Assembly: GCA_963575745.1 (NCBI GenBank)
Contig: CAUYUJ010015703.1
Span: 253,269 to 317,268, forward strand
Direction of reading: 5' to 3'
Source: Prorocentrum cordatum
Taxonomy: Eukaryota > Sar > Dinophyceae > Prorocentrales > Prorocentraceae
Length of the DNA: 64,000 nt
Below the pieces are notes generated by a model, which did not search any database, was not told the origin of the DNA, and worked only from the letters and a program-made list of their open reading frames with translations. Below, piece after piece: positions 18,885 through 29,600 of the stretch. The translations under genes and the position numbers were made by a program. The first letter of the stretch is position 1. Each line of letters opens with the position of its first letter.

Positions 18885-19234
18885 CTCCTCCTCGTCGTCG
18901 TCCTCCTCCTCCTCCTCCTCTCCTCCTCCTCCTCCTCCTCTTCCTCGTCGTCGTCCTCCTCCTCCTCCTCGTCCTGGGGGGGGGGGGGGGGGGGGGGCGG
19001 GCGGGGGGGGGAGGAGGCGAGGGGAGGAGGAGGCAAGGGGGGAGGAGGAGGAGGAGGAGGAGGAAGGAGGAGGAGGAGGAGGAGGAGGAGGAGGGGAGGA
19101 TGAGGAGAGGAGGAGGAGGAGGAGGAGGAGGAGGAGGAGGAGGAGGAGGAGGAGGAGGAGGAGGAGAGGAGGAGGAGGAAGAGGAGGGAGGGAGGAGAGG
19201 AGGAGGAGGAGGAGGAGGAGGAGGAGGGAGGAGG
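18885..19234. repeat. TCC tract, G-runs and GGA tract at the 3' side of the LINE
   Basis: Plus strand is CTCCTC (18890-18972), then a G-run of about 24 (18976-19000), then GGAGGA up to 19234. In the orientation of the LINE (minus) the last part reads TCC repeats beginning right after its A tail. Confidence 0.85.
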
Positions 19235-19342
19235 TTTTTTGCTGCAAGAACGATGCCTGGCGGTCCCCGCCCCAGCTCGCCACAAGAGAAAGAGAGGATG
19301 GGCGGGCACTCCGCCACGGGGTGCCTCCCGCCCCGTCCTGCC

Positions 19343-22300
19343 TCAGTCCATGAGGCACTCCCAGAAAGCGTCACACTCCTCCTGTACCAGGGAGCGCGGT
19401 ACCGCTTCGAGGGAGACCTTCACTGCGTAAGGATTCCTGCCTCGGCGCAGGAGCGAGAGGCGGTACCCTGCGGTGGGGTTCGCTGGGGCCCCGACGCAGG
19501 CGCCCAGGAGCTTGTACCCCCTCTCGCTCGAAAAGACACCGCACCGATCGCAGAAGGTATACTGGCCCACTCGGTGCAGCCCGTGCCCTAGGGCCGCTCC
19601 ACGGAGGGCGGGAGAAATGTCTCCTTCCCCATCCCCCCGCCCCAGCCCGACACCCCAACGACGATCCACCCTCATCTTACCCAGGCAGGGTCTGCGCGCC
19701 AACGCGCGCTTGGTCTTGCCGGAGAAAGCTTTGCGGCCACACGTCGAGCAACGCCACGCCCCCCTCCTCCAGAGGAGGACGTGAGCTCGGGCCCCCTCGG
19801 GCGGTCCTTGCCGCCTTCGGCTGGCCCCGCTGGAGCCCGCGGCAGGCCTCCCCGTGGAATCCCCGAAATCCGCAGTCAACCCCGTCACCCCCGCCACCAG
19901 AGTCAACACCGCCTGGACCTCCGCCGAGCGGGTGGTCCAGGTCTGGGCCTTCCACGGGGGGACCTCCTGCATGTCGGCCCCTAGGCGGGCCTCATTATCT
20001 GCCAATTGGTTCCCTTGAAAATCGAGAAAACTTTCGTGCGAGTCATCCTTCGGCCCGCGCGCATGGGCCTTTACCTTGACGGCCTGGAAGTCGCCTTCTT
20101 GGCTGAAACTATCCTGGAGCTGGGCCCAAATCCTGCCCCAGAGGTCGGCGTGAGGCCTCCGAGGGCTGCAGCACCAACGGGGACCTCTACGGAGGCCTCG
20201 AATGACTGAACTGTTGTCGATCCCTACCCTCAGCGGAGGGTGGGCGCTATACAGCAACTTGAGCAATCCATACAATTCAGCACGGAGGACGGAGGCGAGG
20301 ATACGCAGCCCTGGGAGGGTACCCCGCATGGCCTTGACAGCCCCCCCGTCCTGGTCCAGGAAAACGAAGCCCCAACCGAAGCTCTTGAGCCCTGGTGGGC
20401 CTCTGGCCGATCCGTCAGAGTAGGCCCACCCTGAGACCAGCGGGGGATTCACAAAATCGGGGTTTTCATCCGCCAGGGCATTAATCCAATCAGACTGCGG
20501 GTCCTCCAGGGGGTGCTCGTGAAGCCCACGGGAGAAGAGGAGGGAATCCGAGGAGGAGGATTCAGCACGATGCACGATCCCTTGGAGGCCCTCAGCCTCT
20601 GCGACGGTGGCTCTCGCCGCTCCTCGGTCTGGGCAACAACAGAAATGATGGTGCTGACATCCGACTTCTGCGCCACAGGCTTGGCAGGACCTGTCGTCCC
20701 CGAAGCCCGCGCGCCAGACCTTTTCCTGGGTCCAGAAGTCTCGGCCCATGTAGGCCAGGATAGCCGATCGCCTCTGCGGCGATCGGTTAGCCTTTCGCCG
20801 AAGGAGAGCCCGAATAGGCTCGAGGAAAGGACGGGTGATTCCGAGGTCCCTGGAGGCCGCCCAGGAGGTCATAACCGCAAATTCCAAACGGGTCCAGATC
20901 AGCTTCTTGAGACACTGCGGTGCCGTCCTACGCAACTCCCAGTGCTGCCCGAGATGGTCGGAGAAAACGTGAGGGGCAGGCCACGTCCACGAGAGGAGAT
21001 GGAGTGTGGCCCAGACGGCTGAGGCAGGTCCTTTTATCTGTCTCCAGGGGTTGCTCCCAGGCTTGGCGGCAGCAGCCGCCGCAACAGCTCCACGCCACCC
21101 CGCAGCCATGATCTCCCCATGGCTGCCAGCAAAGATAGCCTCCGCCCATTTGAGCAGTGGCTTCGTGCAAGCGTCGACCAGGGGGTCGCAGCGAAGCGTC
21201 CACAGGCGCAGCAGTCGGTCCTTACCGATTGCGTTCCCGCCCAGCGCTGAAGCCATGAGAGCCCTCGCTCGGGTGAGCCGAGTCGGGTCCATTCCGAGGC
21301 AGACCGCCCCATACAGCACAGAGGGGAGAAATCCCATACGCGCAACTTGAAAAGTGCGCGCACCCTGATTGCCGAGACTCGACAACTTACTTCTGCGTCG
21401 CCGAGCGCTCCCCATCCTGGCATCGGCCCTGGCGCGCAGCGACACAACTCCTGCTCCCGCCGAATCAACTCCAAGCTGCGTGCTGTTGGCCTGGACATCC
21501 AGTCCCAGGCTGTGGGCCCAGCCTTTGATGCGGGCCCGCAGGGAGCGCTGCGCTGTCATGATGAACCCCTTGCCCTTCGGCTTGTCTGGTCGGGCCCTGG
21601 AGACGGGGATCCCACGGGCCTCCATTTCATCAATATACTGGGTCGTGGCGGCATGCAACGAGGCCGAGACATCCGCCTCCGCACCTCGCGCCTGAATGCT
21701 TAAATCATCGACAAATAGCTTCAGCTGCATGGCAGGGTGCTCTTGCGCCAACCCGTCTACAACTGACAAAATAGCTAGCTTGAGGCATATCGTGCCCCCG
21801 CTGCTGCCAGCAACGACTGCAGAGAAGGTGGTGACTGAGTGCACCGACACCACTCCGCGGAACGAAACAACGCGCGTGGCTGTGTATATTGAGATCAGGA
21901 GCTTCAAAAGCTGCAAACGAAACTGATGCGTGGGCGCCTCGGCCCACAGCAAGTACATCGTGACATGCTCAAACGCCTCCTCGAGGTCTAAGACCGCCGT
22001 GCCCGTCACCTCCCCAGGTTGGGCTCCTTCGTCGAACAGCATCTGCTGCCATATCGCTTCCTCTGATCCCCCGCCTGGCGCCGCGAAGTCGTAGTCCCGT
22101 CGAATCTCCCGCTCCCAGTCGTGGAGCTGGTGCGAGTGCGCGCGCTCCACCAGCCGCGCTGCAGTGGTGAGGAGGCCGATGGGCCTAGTCCCCCCACCCT
22201 GCTTGGCCAGTAGAAGATACATCACGTAGCGCAGCTGGGGGGGGGCCACCTGGCCGTGCGCGACGCGTAGGCGACGAAGGCGGCCAGGAACACGAGCCCT

Positions 22301-22378: not shown

Positions 22379-24954
22379 ATGGCCCTGATGTTGTCCGCTG
22401 TAGGCTCGGCCATGCTATACTCGAAAGTGGCCGCCTCCCAGGGCCGAGGGAGCTCGCCTCGGCTCTGGGCGCCGTGGGGGGTCCAGAGGTCGATCCACTT
22501 CAGCGCCTCCAAGTCCACCGCGGCCTGTGAGCAGGTCATGTCCAGATTGGTGCGCCCTCTGGCCCCGAGCGTGGGGTCGACCCCCTGGCGCCACTTCGAC
22601 ATGCGATGGACAAAACCTGCTCCTCCTTGTGAGCCGTCCTTGAGCCTCTGCCGCCACGCCTTGGCCCTCTGGTCTCGGAGGCCCTGCTCGATGACGTGGG
22701 CCTGCTGCGTGGCCCGACGCTGCAGCTCCATCGCCCTGGGAGCGTCCTCCCAGAGCGCGTCCCCGTCCCAGGTGAGGTCGCCCAGCGATAGGAGCTCGAC
22801 GTGCACGGCCCTGGCGTCGTCGCCCAGCGCGTCGCACCAGCGGGCAGCACCATGGTGGAGGCGTCTGCGCAGGCGCCGCCACTGGTCGGCAAACGGCTGC
22901 CAGTCGCGCCGCTGGCGGGCCGCCTGCGCCAGCCAGACGATGTCCCCGACGCGGCTGGCCACCCAGCGCCATGCCCTGGAGCGCGTGGTGCCCCTGGGCC
23001 TCGCATGCGCCTCTGGGCCTGCGATCGGGGCTCTGGCCCATCGAGGGTGGCCCCCCCTGCCAGTGTAGTCGGTCTCGCCAACGAGGTCGTGGATGCCCTG
23101 CAGGTCGTGCTCGGCCGCCGCCGAGAACTCAGCCCACAACTTCTCCAGCTCGGCGTCGCTGTAGCTTGCTCCGCTGTCGAGGATCGGCCAGGCTGGTGGC
23201 TCCCTACGACAGCCCACGGGGAGGCGAGTCGGGAAAGCACGAGGCTTGACCAGCCTCCAGCCTAGCCGCTCCCGCAGTGGCCTCTCCGTCGTGATGGCGA
23301 CGGGGCTGTGCGGGGCGATGGGCGCGTCGAGCACCTCCGCTGCACCGAAGGCTGACGCGATGCGCGCGTCCACCACAAAGTAGTCGATGACCCTCCCGCC
23401 TCCCTTGCCTTGGCAGGTGGGGGCGGCCGAGGAGAAGATGATGCCCCCGACGTCGTCCACCCAGCCCGTGGCCCTGAGCGTGTCGGGGGTGTTGTTGAAG
23501 TCCGCCTGGAGGACCCACGGGATGTCTTAGGCCCTCACTAATTCTCCTATGGCGTCCAAGATGGACAGGTTGCGAACTGCCCAGCCCTCTGAAACCCAGA
23601 AGTAGGCGCTGAGGACCATGAGGCCACCACGAAGAAACCCAGGGGTCCAGGCCGCCACCAGCCTTCCTGGCGATCCTGGCGGCGAGAAGTCGAAGGTGCC
23701 AACGCCCTCAAGGTAGGTGAGGCCCACGCAACGTGGGGCGACGATCCCCACCCCTGCCACTCTGCCGCCACCTGGCCCCACTGCCGCGGGAGCAAGGGCG
23801 ACGGTGAGGTGCCTCTGGGAACAGCTGGCGCTGATCTCGCCGACGTAGTCGCTGGTGAGGCGGTGCTCCTGGACCAGCATGATGGTGTTCCTGCCCAGCG
23901 GCATCTCATCCAGATGGTCGACGAGGGTGCCCCAGGCGCTGCAGTTGAGGCCTCTGAGCATCATGCCAGGCTTTGCGTGGCGCCCCTTGCCTCTAGTTCT
24001 GGGCCTCCAGTATCCCTCTCCCCAGCTGGGCTGCATCGGCCACCCCCCCGTCGGGGGAGCCGAGCTGGGGGCGCTCGTGCCGAGAGGCGTCGACCACCCG
24101 CACGTCTGCGGCTCTCGGTCCCACGGGCCCATCGCTGATGGCATCGACCACCCGCCTGTCGGCGGCACCAGCGAGAGGGGCGCATGGGGGGAGGCGTCGG
24201 CCACCCGCGCATCCGCGGCTCCCCACTCATGCGCCACTGGGGCCTCTTCCGAGGCGTTTGTGGCCGTGCTCAAGCCTGAGCTGACATCCATGTCGGGCTT
24301 GGCGTGGCGGCCCTTGCCTCGCGGTGGGGGGTTCCAGTATTCCTCTCCCCAGCTTGGCTGCGTCGGCCACCCCCCCGTCGGGGGAGCCAAGCTGGGGGCG
24401 CTCGTGTCGAGAGGCTTCGACCACCCGCACGTCTGCGGCTCTCCGTCCCACGAGCTCATCGCTGACGGCGTCGACCACCCGCCTGTCGGCGGCATCAGCG
24501 AGAGGGACGCATGGGGAGAGGCCACGGCCACCCGCGCATCCGCGGCTCTCCACTCATGCGTCACTGGGTCCTCCTCCGAGGCGTCCGTGGCCGTAGTCGA
24601 GGCTGAGCTGACCCCCATGCCAATCTTGGCGCGTCGCCCTCTGCCCCTCGACCGAGGCCCCCAGTAATCCTCTCCCCAGCTTGGCTGCATCGGCCACCCC
24701 CTCGTCAGGGGAGCGGGGCGCTCGTGTGGAGAGGCGTCGACCACCCGCACGTCTGCGGCTCTCCGCCCCACGAGCACATCGCTGATGGCTTCGACCACCC
24801 GCCTGTCGGCGGCATCAGCGAGAGGGGCGCACGGGGAGAGGCATCGGCCACCCGCGCATCCGCGGCTCTCCACGCATGCGTCTCTGGGGCCTCTTCCGTG
24901 GCGTCCGCGGCTGTGCTCGAGGCTGAGCTGCTGCTGTCCCGCCGTCGGAGCCAC
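22246..24954 (-). pseudogene. ORF2 N-terminal part: tandem repeats and apurinic-type endonuclease
   Basis: One frame covers this segment except for an in-frame TAA at 23527-23529 (ELVRA, stop, DIPWVLQADFNN). Endonuclease landmarks of the exonuclease-endonuclease-phosphatase fold: LNCSAWG near 23950, LVQEHRL, then after the stop QADFNNTPDTL, VIDYFVVDARI and APHSPVAI, which supply the N, E, D-x-N, D and H positions. After it comes a long linker with RWASLGDEGLVFLAAFVAY leading into the RT. Upstream are three units of a protein repeat of about 108 residues (WRAADARVADASPHAPLSLM, PPTGGWS, EPQTCGWSTPL, QPSWGE). The single stop, together with the frame changes, makes the copy inactive as read. Confidence 0.85.
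23970..24885. repeat. Three tandem units of about 323 bp inside LINE ORF2
   Basis: Landmarks such as CATGCGTCACTGGGTCCTCC recur at 24229, 24554 and 24875 (spacing 325 and 321 bp). In coding sense each unit encodes about 108 residues with two copies of PPTGGW. The unit nearest the 5' end has lost a few bases near 24718 relative to the others, which shifts the frame. Confidence 0.8.
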
Positions 24955-25338: not shown

Positions 25339-26467
25339 TCAGGCTGTGCTGGGGTCTCCGTCGGCCGCTGGGGGGTTGGCTGCTGCCCGCTCCAGGATCC
25401 TGGCTCGGACGTCCTGTGCCAGCTCGCGCTTAGTCCTGCCTGCGGCCCCCGCAGGAGCAGTGGCGCCTGCAGCGCCGCCTCCGCTGGCTGCAGCAGCGTC
25501 GCGAGCACCGTCAACGCCAGCATGGGGAGGGGCTGGTGGCCCCGCTGTGGGGGCCGCCTTGGCCGCGGCCGCCACTGGCTGCTTGCCGTCTGCGCCGCCT
25601 TTGCCTGCCGCCTTGCCTGGTGATCCCCCATGAGGCGGGAGCCGCAGCGGCCTCTGGTGGGGGAGGCTCCGACCTAGCCCTCTTGCTCTTGAGCCTGTCG
25701 CTGAAGGCCTTGAGGTCCGCGCGCATCGCGGCGAGCCCCTCCGCCGCTGGGCCGAAGTGCCTCTTGACCTCCGACTGGACCTGCTTGACGAACTGGCCCA
25801 TCTGCGCCTCGAACTGGCGGTGCTCTTCGGGCGGGATGTCGAGCCCCTCCAGGTCGAACGCCTTGCCTGGCAGCACGCTGAGGATGTCCAGGTCACCTTC
25901 GAGCAGCTGCGAGAGGTCCAGGGCTGGCGTGGGCTCCTCCACAGGCGCCGCGACCTCGGGCGCCGCTCGAGCGTAGGCCGCCTGGACCGCCGCCTCCGCG
26001 TCGGCGGCCTCGATGACCCAGGTCTCCCGCTGCTCCTTCTGGTCCTGCAGCCACTGCTCCCCCTCGGCGATGCTCTCGATGGTCCTCTTGAGCGCTGCTT
26101 CAGCCCTGCGGAGCCGCGCCTGGGCCTGGTTGAGGGCGACGTCTGGGTGCACCTCTGGTGGCTGCACACGGGCGAGCGCCTCGAGGTGCTGGGCGGCCTC
26201 TGCGTCGCCGTCTGGGAGGGTGGCCCGCAGCTGCTTGAGAAGCTCCTCACGGCTCGGCCTGACTGACGGCCGACTGCGGCGCCGCGAAGAGGCGCCGTTG
26301 GGGCCCCAGGCGCCCTGCGGGGCTCGCTCTTGAGAGGTGGCTGGCTGCAGACCTCTCTTGCACTTGTAGCACTCCGACCTGTTTGTCCAGTTCCACTTAT
26401 GCCCACATCCCCTGCACTTCGCATACTGGCCTCCAGTCTGCTGATCATCCTTCTCCCTGCGCCCCAT
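25339..26467 (-). pseudogene. LINE ORF1: zinc finger and coiled-coil protein, one frameshift
   Basis: Starts MGRREKDDQQTGGQYAKCRG at 26467, about 170 nt after the spliced leader. Residues about 17-38 form a CRGC...CYKC zinc finger of RanBP2-like spacing (C-x2-C-x11-C-x2-C with WNWTNRSE between). A long charged helical region follows (ALNQAQARLRRAEAALKRTI, QWLQDQKEQRETWVIEAADA), likely coiled coil, then a segment FEAQMGQFVKQVQSEVKRHF and an Ala/Pro-rich tail. Near 25627, at a run of five G, the reading frame shifts by one and continues to TGA-type stop at 25339 (TKRELAQDVRARILERAAAN). By analogy with other LINE ORF1 proteins it would bind the element RNA; that is inference. Confidence 0.7.
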
Positions 26468-26636
26468 GCGCGACCGTGGAGAATAGATCTCCTGCACGAC
26501 CAGTACAGTGCGGGGGGCCCTCGGAGCGTGAACAAAAATGTGAGGGCGCCTGCCTTGCCCAGCAGGCCCCTGATGCGCGGGCCGAGCCTGCTGGGCAGGC
26601 TCCTGGTCTCTGCAAACCACCTCGAGAAATGGTTTA

Positions 26637-26657
26637 CTTGAGCCAAAATGGCTACGG
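26637..26657 (-). other. Spliced-leader sequence at the LINE 5' end
   Basis: On the minus strand these 21 bases match positions 2-22 of the dinoflagellate spliced leader, including GCCATTTTGGCTCAAG. Position 1 of the leader (normally A, G or T) would be the C at 26658, which belongs equally well to the TCC microsatellite. The leader ends AAG, so its own AG could again act as a trans-splice acceptor. Confidence 0.95.
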
Positions 26658-26690
26658 GGAGGAGGAGGAGGAGGAGGAGGAGGAGGAGGA
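26658..26690. repeat. GGA microsatellite at the 5' side of the LINE
   Basis: Eleven or so GGA units on the plus strand, i.e. TCC repeat in element orientation, directly in contact with the spliced-leader sequence. Confidence 0.9.
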
Positions 26691-29600
26691 CCGCAGCCAT
26701 GTCGGCCCAAACCATTCTAGCCCAAGTCGCCGCATGCGGGCCCGGGGAGCGGGCCCGTCGGCCCCGCAGCCCGCGGCGGCGACGAGCGCGGCGCCTGGCC
26801 GCGCGCCATGGCCACCTGGGTTGGGGCGCCCACGGCTGGCCACGCCCCTGCCCATGGGACGCACAGGGACGTACTAATGCTATACGTCCTCCTTGGAGGC
26901 GCGCATCCGACCCGAACATACAGTATACCCATACTGTAGCAGATTCTGCGACGCTGCCCGGCGCCCTGGCTCGCTAAGAAGCCCGAGCCACCATGGCTAC
27001 GACATGCGCTGTCCAATGAAGGATCCAAACTCGTCCGTTTCGGTTTCTGTCGGCTCTTCATTGTAAGTTTCAGATCCTCTCTCTGTTAGACAGACATATT
27101 CGCCCCCCTACCTGCCCTTGCCAACCAGCCGATCAAGTTTCGCCACCAATGGTAATTTCAAGCAAGCGAGTGTCACGACATTCCGCTGACAGCCTGCGCC
27201 CTGCGGGCGAGACGTCTCTCCCCAGCGCGGAGGCAATGTGAAAACGGGAGCGGGCCTCGCCGCACTTGCGAAGATCCCTCTGGAGCCACGAGAATTTTCA
27301 CTCGCGGGCATACGCGAGAGACCACGCCCGCAACTGCGCGGATGTTGTTTCGAGGAGCTATTGGCTTACATTCGTGCTCTTGCAAGGATGTCATTTAGGA
27401 AACGCACTGCGGGCCAGCAAAAGGACGCAAGACATAAGCGATCTTCCGATTCGCGATCTGTTCTTCGAAACATCGTGCCATTGACCAGGGCCGCGCGACG
27501 CGGGCGGGGGGCGGGGGGGGGGATTGCTGCTCCTCTAACGGCCTCGAAAGGCAACAAAAACAACGGTCTGCCACTGGGCACCAGGGCAGATTACACAGCC
27601 AAGCGTTGCGCTTGAACTGGGCGAGGTGTCTCCTACGTTGGGCTTGGAAAACGACTGTTCGTGACCTGGATCCCCGGCAACTGGTCAGTCCGCGCTTCGG
27701 TCGGCGGGCTGCTCGCGAGGAAAGTCGCCCCCGAACCTGCCGGGGAACTCGGCGCCGACCCTTTCGTCGACAAGGAAATGGCGCGCCGCGTCGCCCACCT
27801 CGCCAGGGAAGAGCAGACCGCGTCATGTGACGACCGCCGCGGCACAGGCACGGCCCACCCCATCGGTCTCGACGATTTGGTTCGATGGCGCCAAGAACCT
27901 TGCAAAAAGCAAGGCGCGTGGACCCGCGAGAGACAGCTTCGGCCGACTATGAAATGAGGTCGCTGTGGCGCCCGCTCACGCAGAAGACTTTGATGTCTAC
28001 GCGTGCGATGATGCCGCCGCCCGCAGTTGCGACTGGGGGGGGGGGGGGGGGGGGCCGGCCCGGGCTAGCCCGGCGGTGCCGCCATGGCAATGACTAAACC
28101 CAATTTGAAATTTGGCGCGAGCTCCCACTGCAAACGCCCCAAGGGAACTAGGCCGTCAAAATCCTAGACGCGCCCGTCGCAAAGCACGCACGGGCAGATC
28201 CCAGTTCCAGCGCGCTCGGATTCGGCGGCCCCCCATCGACGCGCACGAGCTGGTTCATCAAGTCCTGGCGACCGCAAAATACACACTGCTTTGATTAGGT
28301 GCTTCAGCAGCACCGCCGCCCGCATCGCGCGACCTGCTGCGGGGTTCTCAGGGCTGGAGTTGGATGCTCCAAACTCCACTTCAACCATAATTTGCGGCCT
28401 TTACGGTGTTCCGTAATTTCGCAAGCCGCCCCAGAGACCCACGCGTCGCCCTCCAGAGCACCGCGCAAACGAACGCGCGGCATTCGAGGTCTCTGCTGGC
28501 CTCGCGGACAGCAATGCAGCGAGCATCAAAAACAACTGGTCCACGTATAACCGCTGACAACTTGCAACTGCTAGATGTCGAGATCCGCAAATGAATGCTC
28601 TTGCTAAGTAGCTGTACTGTTAACGATTCAAAAGCCCTCTTCCATGCCTGTAGGGGCGATGCCGGAACTTCTCTGTTTCAAGAAATCGCAACATCTATAA
28701 AGGATCCGACTCCCGTTCGGGAAATACGATCCTGCACTTGAGAACCTGCCTCGAGATGCTCAGCAAGCCCGCCCGATGGACTGGGAAGGCGCAAAGTGAT
28801 GTCCGCCAACTCTTCATATTGAAGTGACTGGGCGGCTTGCCGTCTTCGTTCAAGGACCTTGGTAACATCTCCCATGCTTTCTTCCCGATCACGGGGCCCG
28901 CTGTTTTCCCGCGCACTTCAAGTTTGGCGCGCTCTTTGACCCATGGACGCGCTTGGGGTGATGAGCGAACGCGAAATTGACGGGCACCGCGGGGCCTCCC
29001 CGGCCTGCGGGCGGAAAGCGGGCCGCGAGCTCTAGTCGCAATCGGGCAACTTCGCCACGGCGGCCCCACGCGCCAGTAATCTCTTAAGTTTTTGAAGGGG
29101 AGCTCCATGACGCAATCCCAATAGAGACGGGCAAATAGGTCTTTCAATGCGAGTTTCTCTCGGGTTTGATATTTCCCCGCCCCGGCCCTTCAGTCCTCTC
29201 TGTGCGCCTTTGGAATGCTCGCCCTCGCATTTGCCTTTCGCTTCGCAGACCCCCCCTTTGTCGTCGGCGCCCCGGCCCTCGCCTTCCGCCGGCAGACGCA
29301 GCTGCGAGGAGGAGCGGCCCATGCGCGGCCTCGGCTTGCGGTTGCTTCCCCCCCTCCTCCTTGTCTCGTTCCTTCCCTCTCTGCTCGCTGCTTTCTTCCC
29401 TTCCCTTTCCTCCTGCCCCCCGCCTGCTGTGTCCGCCTAGCCCCTCTTCTGCCTCCCCGCCTGCCCCGCGGGCCCCGGCCCCCCGCCTTCCGCCCGGCAG
29501 CGCGGCCTGCCGACTGGCCGGGCCAGGGCAAGGTGGCCGGCCGAGCCCAGCGCGCCGCGGCTCGGCGCGGGCTGCCCTCTGCGGGATCCACCCGCCGCCC

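Follow-up and report, generated by a model that had tools for sequence, protein, structure and literature searches.

The window, by which the whole analysed stretch of 64,000 nucleotides of Prorocentrum cordatum DNA is meant, carries on its minus strand a 7.4-kb LINE whose 5′ terminus is an exact copy of the 21-nt core of the dinoflagellate spliced leader (SL). The first-pass annotation, made from the letters of the window, had placed the leader at the minus-strand 5′ end of a LINE-type element, and this is borne out by the 21 exact nucleotides and by the ORF1 and the RVT_1 reverse transcriptase (RT) domain that lie downstream (Table 1). The core reads CCGTAGCCATTTTGGCTCAAG; the first of the 22 leader positions is occupied by C, not by A, G or T, and 100 dinucleotide shuffles yielded no match even with up to three mismatches allowed. 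The sequence that follows the SL is TAAACC, and the GT donor of an SL RNA gene is not present there.

Table 1. Features of the LINE and its flanks in the window (positions are those of the window).
Feature	Position	Strand	Basis or remark
TCC microsatellite, 3′ side	19010..19234	-	Sequence read; orientation as at 5′ side
A-run AAAAAA, LINE 3′ end	19235..19240	-	Sequence read
RNase H region	19976..20446	-	Alignment to P0002; Pfam RNase_H in P0002, 4.7e-07
Reverse transcriptase domain RVT_1	21620..22204	-	Pfam, E 3e-9
Endonuclease-like region, split by a stop in the window copy	23281..23994	-	Alignment to P0002
Three tandem 327-bp units within the LINE	23954..24930	-	Repeat analysis
ORF1	~26467-25511 (25511..26467)	-	Open reading frame
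Conserved ~30-nt motif (TAAACCATTTCTCGAGGTGG...) right after the SL	26605..26636	-	Common to three otherwise non-aligning elements
Spliced-leader relic, 21/22 nt, LINE 5′ terminus	26637..26657	-	Exact match; equal junction in other copies
Perfect (TCC)11 microsatellite, target left at 5′ side	26658..26690	-	Directly upstream of SL

A protein search with ORF1 detected one relative, P0001, and a search with the RT-bearing ORF detected four, in both cases among the 7993 best-sharing candidates that were scored. A stretch of ORF1 is 70% identical to P0001 over 74 aa; the ORF matches no Pfam family above cut-off and carries what we take to be a Cys/His zinc-finger-like motif. The RT-bearing protein shares 40% identity with P0002 over 983 aligned positions, and the endonuclease-like region aligns with residues 9-161 of P0002 (42%) and from residue 187 onward (36%). 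This region is presumably APE-like, judging from its motifs; a Pfam endonuclease was matched neither by the window ORFs nor by P0002. The window copy is interrupted by a stop near 23527 and a frame change near 22300. In the end sequences read, the two ends are not alike beyond the microsatellite, and no Rfam family reached its gathering threshold anywhere in the window.

Beyond the 5′ microsatellite, a degenerate tandem of SL and relic was detected on the plus strand, starting from the end of the GGA tract (26691-26726); it matches at 28 of 36 bases, compared with at best 25 in 200 shuffles of the whole window. Two SL relics in divergent orientation flank this one microsatellite, and the plus-strand tandem probably belongs to another retrocopy, older than the LINE and oppositely oriented.

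The query for a DNA-level search of the assembly (4.13 Gb, 21,875 contigs) was the 5′-terminal 420 nt of the element, and the best 40 of 295 candidates were scored. These 40 matches are 87-100% identical to the query and begin within its first 7 nt in 38 cases, at nt 12 in one and at nt 26 in one. Thirty loci were read among them, and in all 30 an SL was found at the junction, alone, stacked or damaged, the damage being a short deletion in L034, an internal deletion in L039, retention of only the last ~10 nt in L045 and deletions in L057. A pyrimidine-rich repeat lies upstream of the SL in each of the 30 loci, consisting of TCC in 28, CAC/CAT in L040 and TCATCC in L046, and in none of GGA; in L051, 15 nt separate the TCC tract from the SL. 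Outside the masked tracts, upstream sequence is common to L058 and L059 (1275 nt, identical) and to L047 and L048 (93 nt, identical), which were taken for duplicated loci and reduce the 30 to 28 independent ones; weak similarity, in four comparisons over 61-80 nt with 75-79% identity, lies more than 900 nt upstream. A set of copies that extend past the SL with common upstream sequence, which the first-pass annotation had named as the finding that would speak against it, was not present among the 30 loci.

A motif of 20 nt, located directly downstream of the SL in the window element, has 65 exact copies in the genome (26 and 39 by strand), compared with none for the reversed control, a count that takes in only copies in which these 20 nt are exact and that includes 23 of the 30 loci read. 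Directly before this motif an SL, intact or damaged, was found in 65 of 65 copies. Four pairs of copies have interrupted tracts and identical flanks (L047/L048, L107/L125, L113/L134, and L120/L129) and, because these may be duplicated loci, the number of insertion events would be lower than 65. The tract preceding the SL is TCC in 40 copies and GGA in 25, the script having called 38 pyrimidine and 25 purine tracts, with L051 and L057 recognized as TCC by eye. It abuts the SL in 60 of the 65 and is separated from it by 6-15 nt of non-repeat sequence in L051, L103, L113, L117, and L134. Three GGA copies of the motif have only ~30 nt in common with the window element, two of them showing in addition a weak ORF1 similarity (36-37% over 38-50 aa); the GGA copies were considered as a sister subfamily, which was rejected on these grounds in favor of distinct elements that have this 5′ motif in common. 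Since a stretch of ~30 nt downstream of the SL is conserved across elements that do not align otherwise, conservation that is independent only beyond the first 20 nt that served as the search key, such elements appear to possess a conserved 5′ module and hence to keep some 5′ sequence of their own, a point that bears on the movement without promoter-proximal sequence which the first-pass annotation had suggested as possible.

The reading proposed here, in which a good deal of confidence can be placed, is that the LINE RNA is trans-spliced, A-tailed and inserted in GGA/TCC microsatellites, and that the relics so deposited can be trans-spliced again. Stacked leader relics, which had been predicted from the window alone, were found in 26 of the 65 motif copies; the remaining 39 have a single leader, which is damaged in L034 and L045. 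The script that counted stacks detects 15-nt units only and returned 23 (21 with two units and two with three), to which the damaged stacks of L039, L057, and L097 were added by eye. Among the 30 loci read, 12 stacks were identified by eye, nine of them with a clean 15-nt unit running from the inner AG to the end AG (two of the nine representing one duplicated locus), two damaged and one odd. A 15-nt relic unit cut at the inner AG is as described for dinoflagellate genes in the accessible parts of two papers (PMC12014239; PMC3229502). Genome-wide, 1202 exact stacks of SL and relic (622 + 580) are present, compared with 14218 exact SLs. A 15-bp duplication at the DNA level could in principle also be a source of stacks. 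The odd stack, at L037, has the order SL-relic-TAAAG-relic-AAACC, which simple re-splicing does not explain.

It has to be considered that the microsatellite is chosen as a polypyrimidine tract, such that the insertion builds its own acceptor from the TCC tract and the GTAG of the relic. The uniformly pyrimidine-rich sense strand at the 30 loci read among the best 40 of 295 matches (28 TCC, no GGA) is in line with this, as is the roughly 3:1 ratio genome-wide between exact SLs that follow 13 pyrimidines plus any base (4007, 28%) and those that follow 13 purines plus any base (1345, 9.5%). The background is 2.5% for pyrimidines and 1.9% for purines, as determined from window positions only, which gives enrichments of ~11-fold and ~5-fold. 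However, a GGA tract precedes the SL in 25 of the 65 motif copies, and stacks were found after GGA in 12 of 25 and after TCC in 14 of 40, so that a pyrimidine tract seems unnecessary; a fixed strand preference of the endonuclease would account for the bias equally well, and no simple acceptor consensus beyond AG is reported in the accessible part of Bachvaroff and Place (2008; PMC2488372). A need for TCC as a polypyrimidine tract is weakened in particular by GGA insertions that stack at least as often, and this explanation of the target is regarded as unlikely.

Less likely again is that the SL constitutes a fixed, inherited part of the element (e.g., an internal promoter acting via TTT(G)), with RNA that starts at the relic and no new trans-splicing. 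Copies with a single leader are predicted by such inheritance and make up 39 of the 65, the sequence right after the SL is well conserved too, and a promoter motif in DinoSL relics has been proposed by Song et al. (2018; PMC6050394, accessible part). On the other hand, the 26 stacked copies lie on many branches, and stacks made by splicing require both transcription from upstream and a relic that works as acceptor; moreover, other LINE families have an SL at the same place (see below). The branch positions were obtained from a tree built on 1.5 kb of sequence from 28 copies, 17 single and 11 stacked, on which the two labels are intermixed, with eight changes of which at least six are forced by well-supported branches; shuffling of the labels gave a mean of 9.0 changes, and 168-169 of 500 shuffles were as low as eight. 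This intermixing indicates that relic number changes often. Renewed trans-splicing, the reading proposed here, thus retains the part of the earlier claim that has the relic serve as acceptor in the next round in so far as DNA can document it, through the stacks and their scatter on the tree; the corresponding step at the RNA level is what these stacks would imply.

For the opposite end the 3′-terminal 420 nt served as query; the best 40 of 227 candidates were scored and 30 loci read. An A-run of 0-11 nt is found at the 3′ end, followed by a TCC tract, in some cases short, in 29 of the 30 and by CAC/CAT in one (L063); the flank starts with CCTCC in 21 of 30 and with GCCTC in three of 30. L065 and L066 represent one duplicated locus according to their downstream flank, and some weaker repeats are also common to the downstream flanks of other 3′ loci. 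The phase of CCTCC after the A-run suggests, for the family of the window element, that the purine strand is nicked at GGAGG^A.

Thirteen copies could be compared at both ends, and in five of these an informative, perfect target duplication of 13-14 bp lies immediately outside the SL and the A-run. In four the duplication is 14 bp long and the SL starts at its second base (CCTCCTTCTCCTTC, CCCTATCCTCCTCC, CCTCCTTGTCCTCC, and CACCATCACCAGCA), and in the fifth it is 13 bp long and the first leader base, T, is kept (CTTCCTGCTCCTC). The insert in the informative copies hence spans exactly the region from SL to A-run, as expected for an RNA headed by the SL and tailed with A, and the SL belongs to the element side of the duplication, the flanks being microsatellite. 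In four further copies only pure repeat of 8-14 bp matches (C19712, C13592, C16561, and C14854, the window copy, whose (TCC)11 tract has 8 bp of pure repeat in common with the 3′ flank and is uninformative as a duplication); the ends of C17534 and C19037 do not match, and in C21608 and C117 the leaders are damaged. The A-run at the 3′ end and the target duplication are those of a non-LTR retrotransposon, and both ends of independent copies lie in one kind of simple repeat, as in microsatellite-specific LINEs. Together with the 65 SL junctions, they uphold the central claim of the first-pass annotation, that the LINE was in all probability copied from a trans-spliced RNA that carried the leader into DNA. 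The window copy (L062, C14854) and C19037 (L080) have 1158 nt at 99.8% identity in common from ~335 nt downstream of the element, despite different 5′ flanks and bodies ~4% apart; recombination between copies or misassembly is possible, and this common flank lowers the confidence in the proposed reading slightly.

That the TCC/GGA tracts arose after insertion, for instance by slippage at the junctions, and were never targets is very improbable: such repeats are abundant, as seen in the window, but interrupted and imperfect repeats, one of them CAC/CAT, are duplicated exactly on both sides of the five informative copies. Exact SLs are so common (14218 in 4.13 Gb, ~0.2 expected per window) that a chance neighborhood of an SL RNA gene or an unrelated SL copy with a LINE, which the first-pass annotation had itself raised as a possible refutation, needed testing, and it is hardly credible in view of the 65 of 65 junctions read, the five duplications that enclose the SL and the lack of a GT donor after it.

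Further LINE families show the association as well. The genome listing of exact SL sites was sampled without regard to content by reading its first 28 entries (L004-L031), and the 30 nt before the SL proved to be at least 90% pyrimidine in 14, at least 90% purine in seven and neither in seven, of which one has a CAT repeat, one a TA repeat and five no repeat. Pyrimidine or purine tracts thus precede 21 of 28 SLs, compared with 1132 of 46194 control positions (2.5%) in the same loci. Three sites, picked for resemblance to another SL site, were followed downstream. L008 heads element B, in which the SL leads at once into the ATG of an 1869-aa frame (RVT_1, 7.5e-16), and L010 heads element C (RVT_1, 1.1e-13); each has an exact SL after TCC, and its far end runs into TCC. 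L026 heads a 3.9-kb stretch with a C-like ORF1 that is closed by a 13-bp repeat of its own 5′ flank and in which an RT was not found; right after it stands a second LINE with a mutated SL after TCC, which shows endonuclease/RT similarity ~1.6 and 4-6 kb on. ORF1 similarity to B, C or the L026 element, at 25-81% barring self matches, was detected at L008, L010, L012, L014, L018, L020, L026, and L030, and L004 matches L012 over 75 nt. At least nine of the 28 arbitrary SL sites therefore resemble LINE 5′ ends, the RT itself having been read in two.

Two further features of these sites may be mentioned. The repeats next to the exact SLs at L014 and L027 are (TA)n and (CAT)n; the range of targets may therefore exceed TCC/GGA. 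An ATG directly follows the SL at L004, L008, L010, L020, L022, and L030, elements whose 5′ untranslated region might consist of nothing but the leader.

Exact SLs also occur in a few contigs of other assignment. A search of viral contigs returned one with an exact SL, and no RT patterns were found in viral contigs. The contig, giant-virus-like IMGVR_UViG_3300045993_001077 (L001), is 22% GC with an island of 49% GC at 1936-2913, in which a 254-aa ORF is closely preceded by an exact SL, with another exact SL 147 bp on; the island looks like a host mRNA copied with its leader into the viral genome. Two contigs of prokaryote genomes with an SL are contaminant- or chimera-like. The first, from a Dehalococcoidia MAG, resembles eukaryotic rDNA; its spacer contains an exact SL with GT after it (L003, 4334-4354, minus strand), and an SL RNA gene may be located there. 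In the second, from a bacterial MAG, an exact SL at the contig end adjoins a (TCA)n repeat (L002, 32-52, plus strand), and this contig is probably chimeric because the rest of it encodes bacterial-looking proteins.

A cycle of retrotransposition can be proposed from these data. A transcript through the element would be trans-spliced, giving an RNA with the 22-nt SL at its 5′ end and a short A-tail, in keeping with the exact termini seen at the DNA level. The machinery of the element is predicted to cut one strand of a GGA/TCC microsatellite, and target-primed reverse transcription would then run through the leader to its second or first base, leaving at the target the 13-14 bp duplication that is observed. 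In the next cycle the relic may be trans-spliced at its inner AG (GTAG), whereby a 15-nt relic would be added, as in the stacks; alternatively, trans-splicing at the end AG of the relic would reset the copy to one leader. In this manner the host would renew the 5′ end at every cycle.

Several LINE families appear to behave alike and, given the many other SL-tagged sites in the same kind of target, a like machinery may recycle host mRNAs too. LINEs are therefore strong candidates for the machinery of dinoflagellate mRNA recycling. A more far-reaching proposal, plausible yet held with rather less than full conviction and falling slightly short of the probable, is that these LINEs are promoterless, are transcribed as part of host transcription units, obtain their 5′ end by host trans-splicing in every cycle and insert in GGA/TCC, and that the same enzymes acting in trans are the main recycler of host mRNAs. 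SL relics, which host genes were known to have, are now found on LINEs as well, which offers the actor that retroposition has been missing, and the SL-tagged copies bear the A-run, the 13-14 bp duplication and the target preference of LINE insertion. As SL relics also mark LINEs (nine of 28 sites), counts of retrogenes made from SL relics could include LINEs. The arrangement affords a simple genomic test in any dinoflagellate genome, namely the order tract, SL, body, A-run, tract.

Retrogenes with SL relics, and hence mRNA recycling, in dinoflagellates were reportedly described by Slamovits and Keeling in 2008. Such retrogenes are treated in the accessible parts of several later papers (PMC12014239; PMC6050394; PMC3229502), and the LINE copies resemble them in the SL at the DNA 5′ end, in 15-nt stacks from the inner AG and in re-use of the relic, the genomic 5′ relic being found in 65 of 65 copies and the optional stack in 26. 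They differ in that a LINE is the RNA recycled and in that the exact ends of the insert, its A-run, the duplication of the target and the preference for certain targets could be determined. According to the accessible part of one review, the retroelement that mediates dinoflagellate retroposition is not known and LTR elements of the Ty1/copia type are favored (PMC6050394), and LINEs have been implicated near SL-tagged viral insertions in Symbiodinium (PMC10235124, in the part accessible). The searched literature, as far as its text is accessible, describes neither SL-headed LINEs nor SL retrocopies that target TCC/GGA, and subscription papers may contain such a report.

The dinoflagellate element SymbioLINE-Dnmt likewise has endonuclease and RT, target duplications and a conserved 5′ region; it differs in carrying a methyltransferase and in its reported lack of poly-A tails, and the term 'spliced leader' has no occurrence in the accessible text of that paper (PMC5890265). 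The trypanosomatid elements L1Tc/ingi are also LINEs of an organism with SL trans-splicing, but for L1Tc an internal Pr77 promoter plus ribozyme and unspliced transcripts are reported (PMC8190864, accessible part), whereas the present elements have a trans-spliced 5′ end at the DNA level. Both microsatellites and SL exons have been described as targets of LINEs (PMC4640811). Microsatellite-specific LINEs, which include members of the Tx1 and R1 clades with APE, some HERO and Togen, share the insertion into simple repeats and differ from the present elements in the GGA/TCC target and the 5′ SL of the latter. In SLACS, CRE, and NeSL, LINE and SL adjoin as well. An identity of the P. cordatum element as an SL-exon-targeting LINE was considered and rejected, the SL lying on the inner side of the target duplication, next to the element body, with microsatellite as flank. 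In SLACS, CRE, and NeSL the SL gene is the target, whereas in P. cordatum the SL stands on the element side and would have been part of the RNA that was copied.
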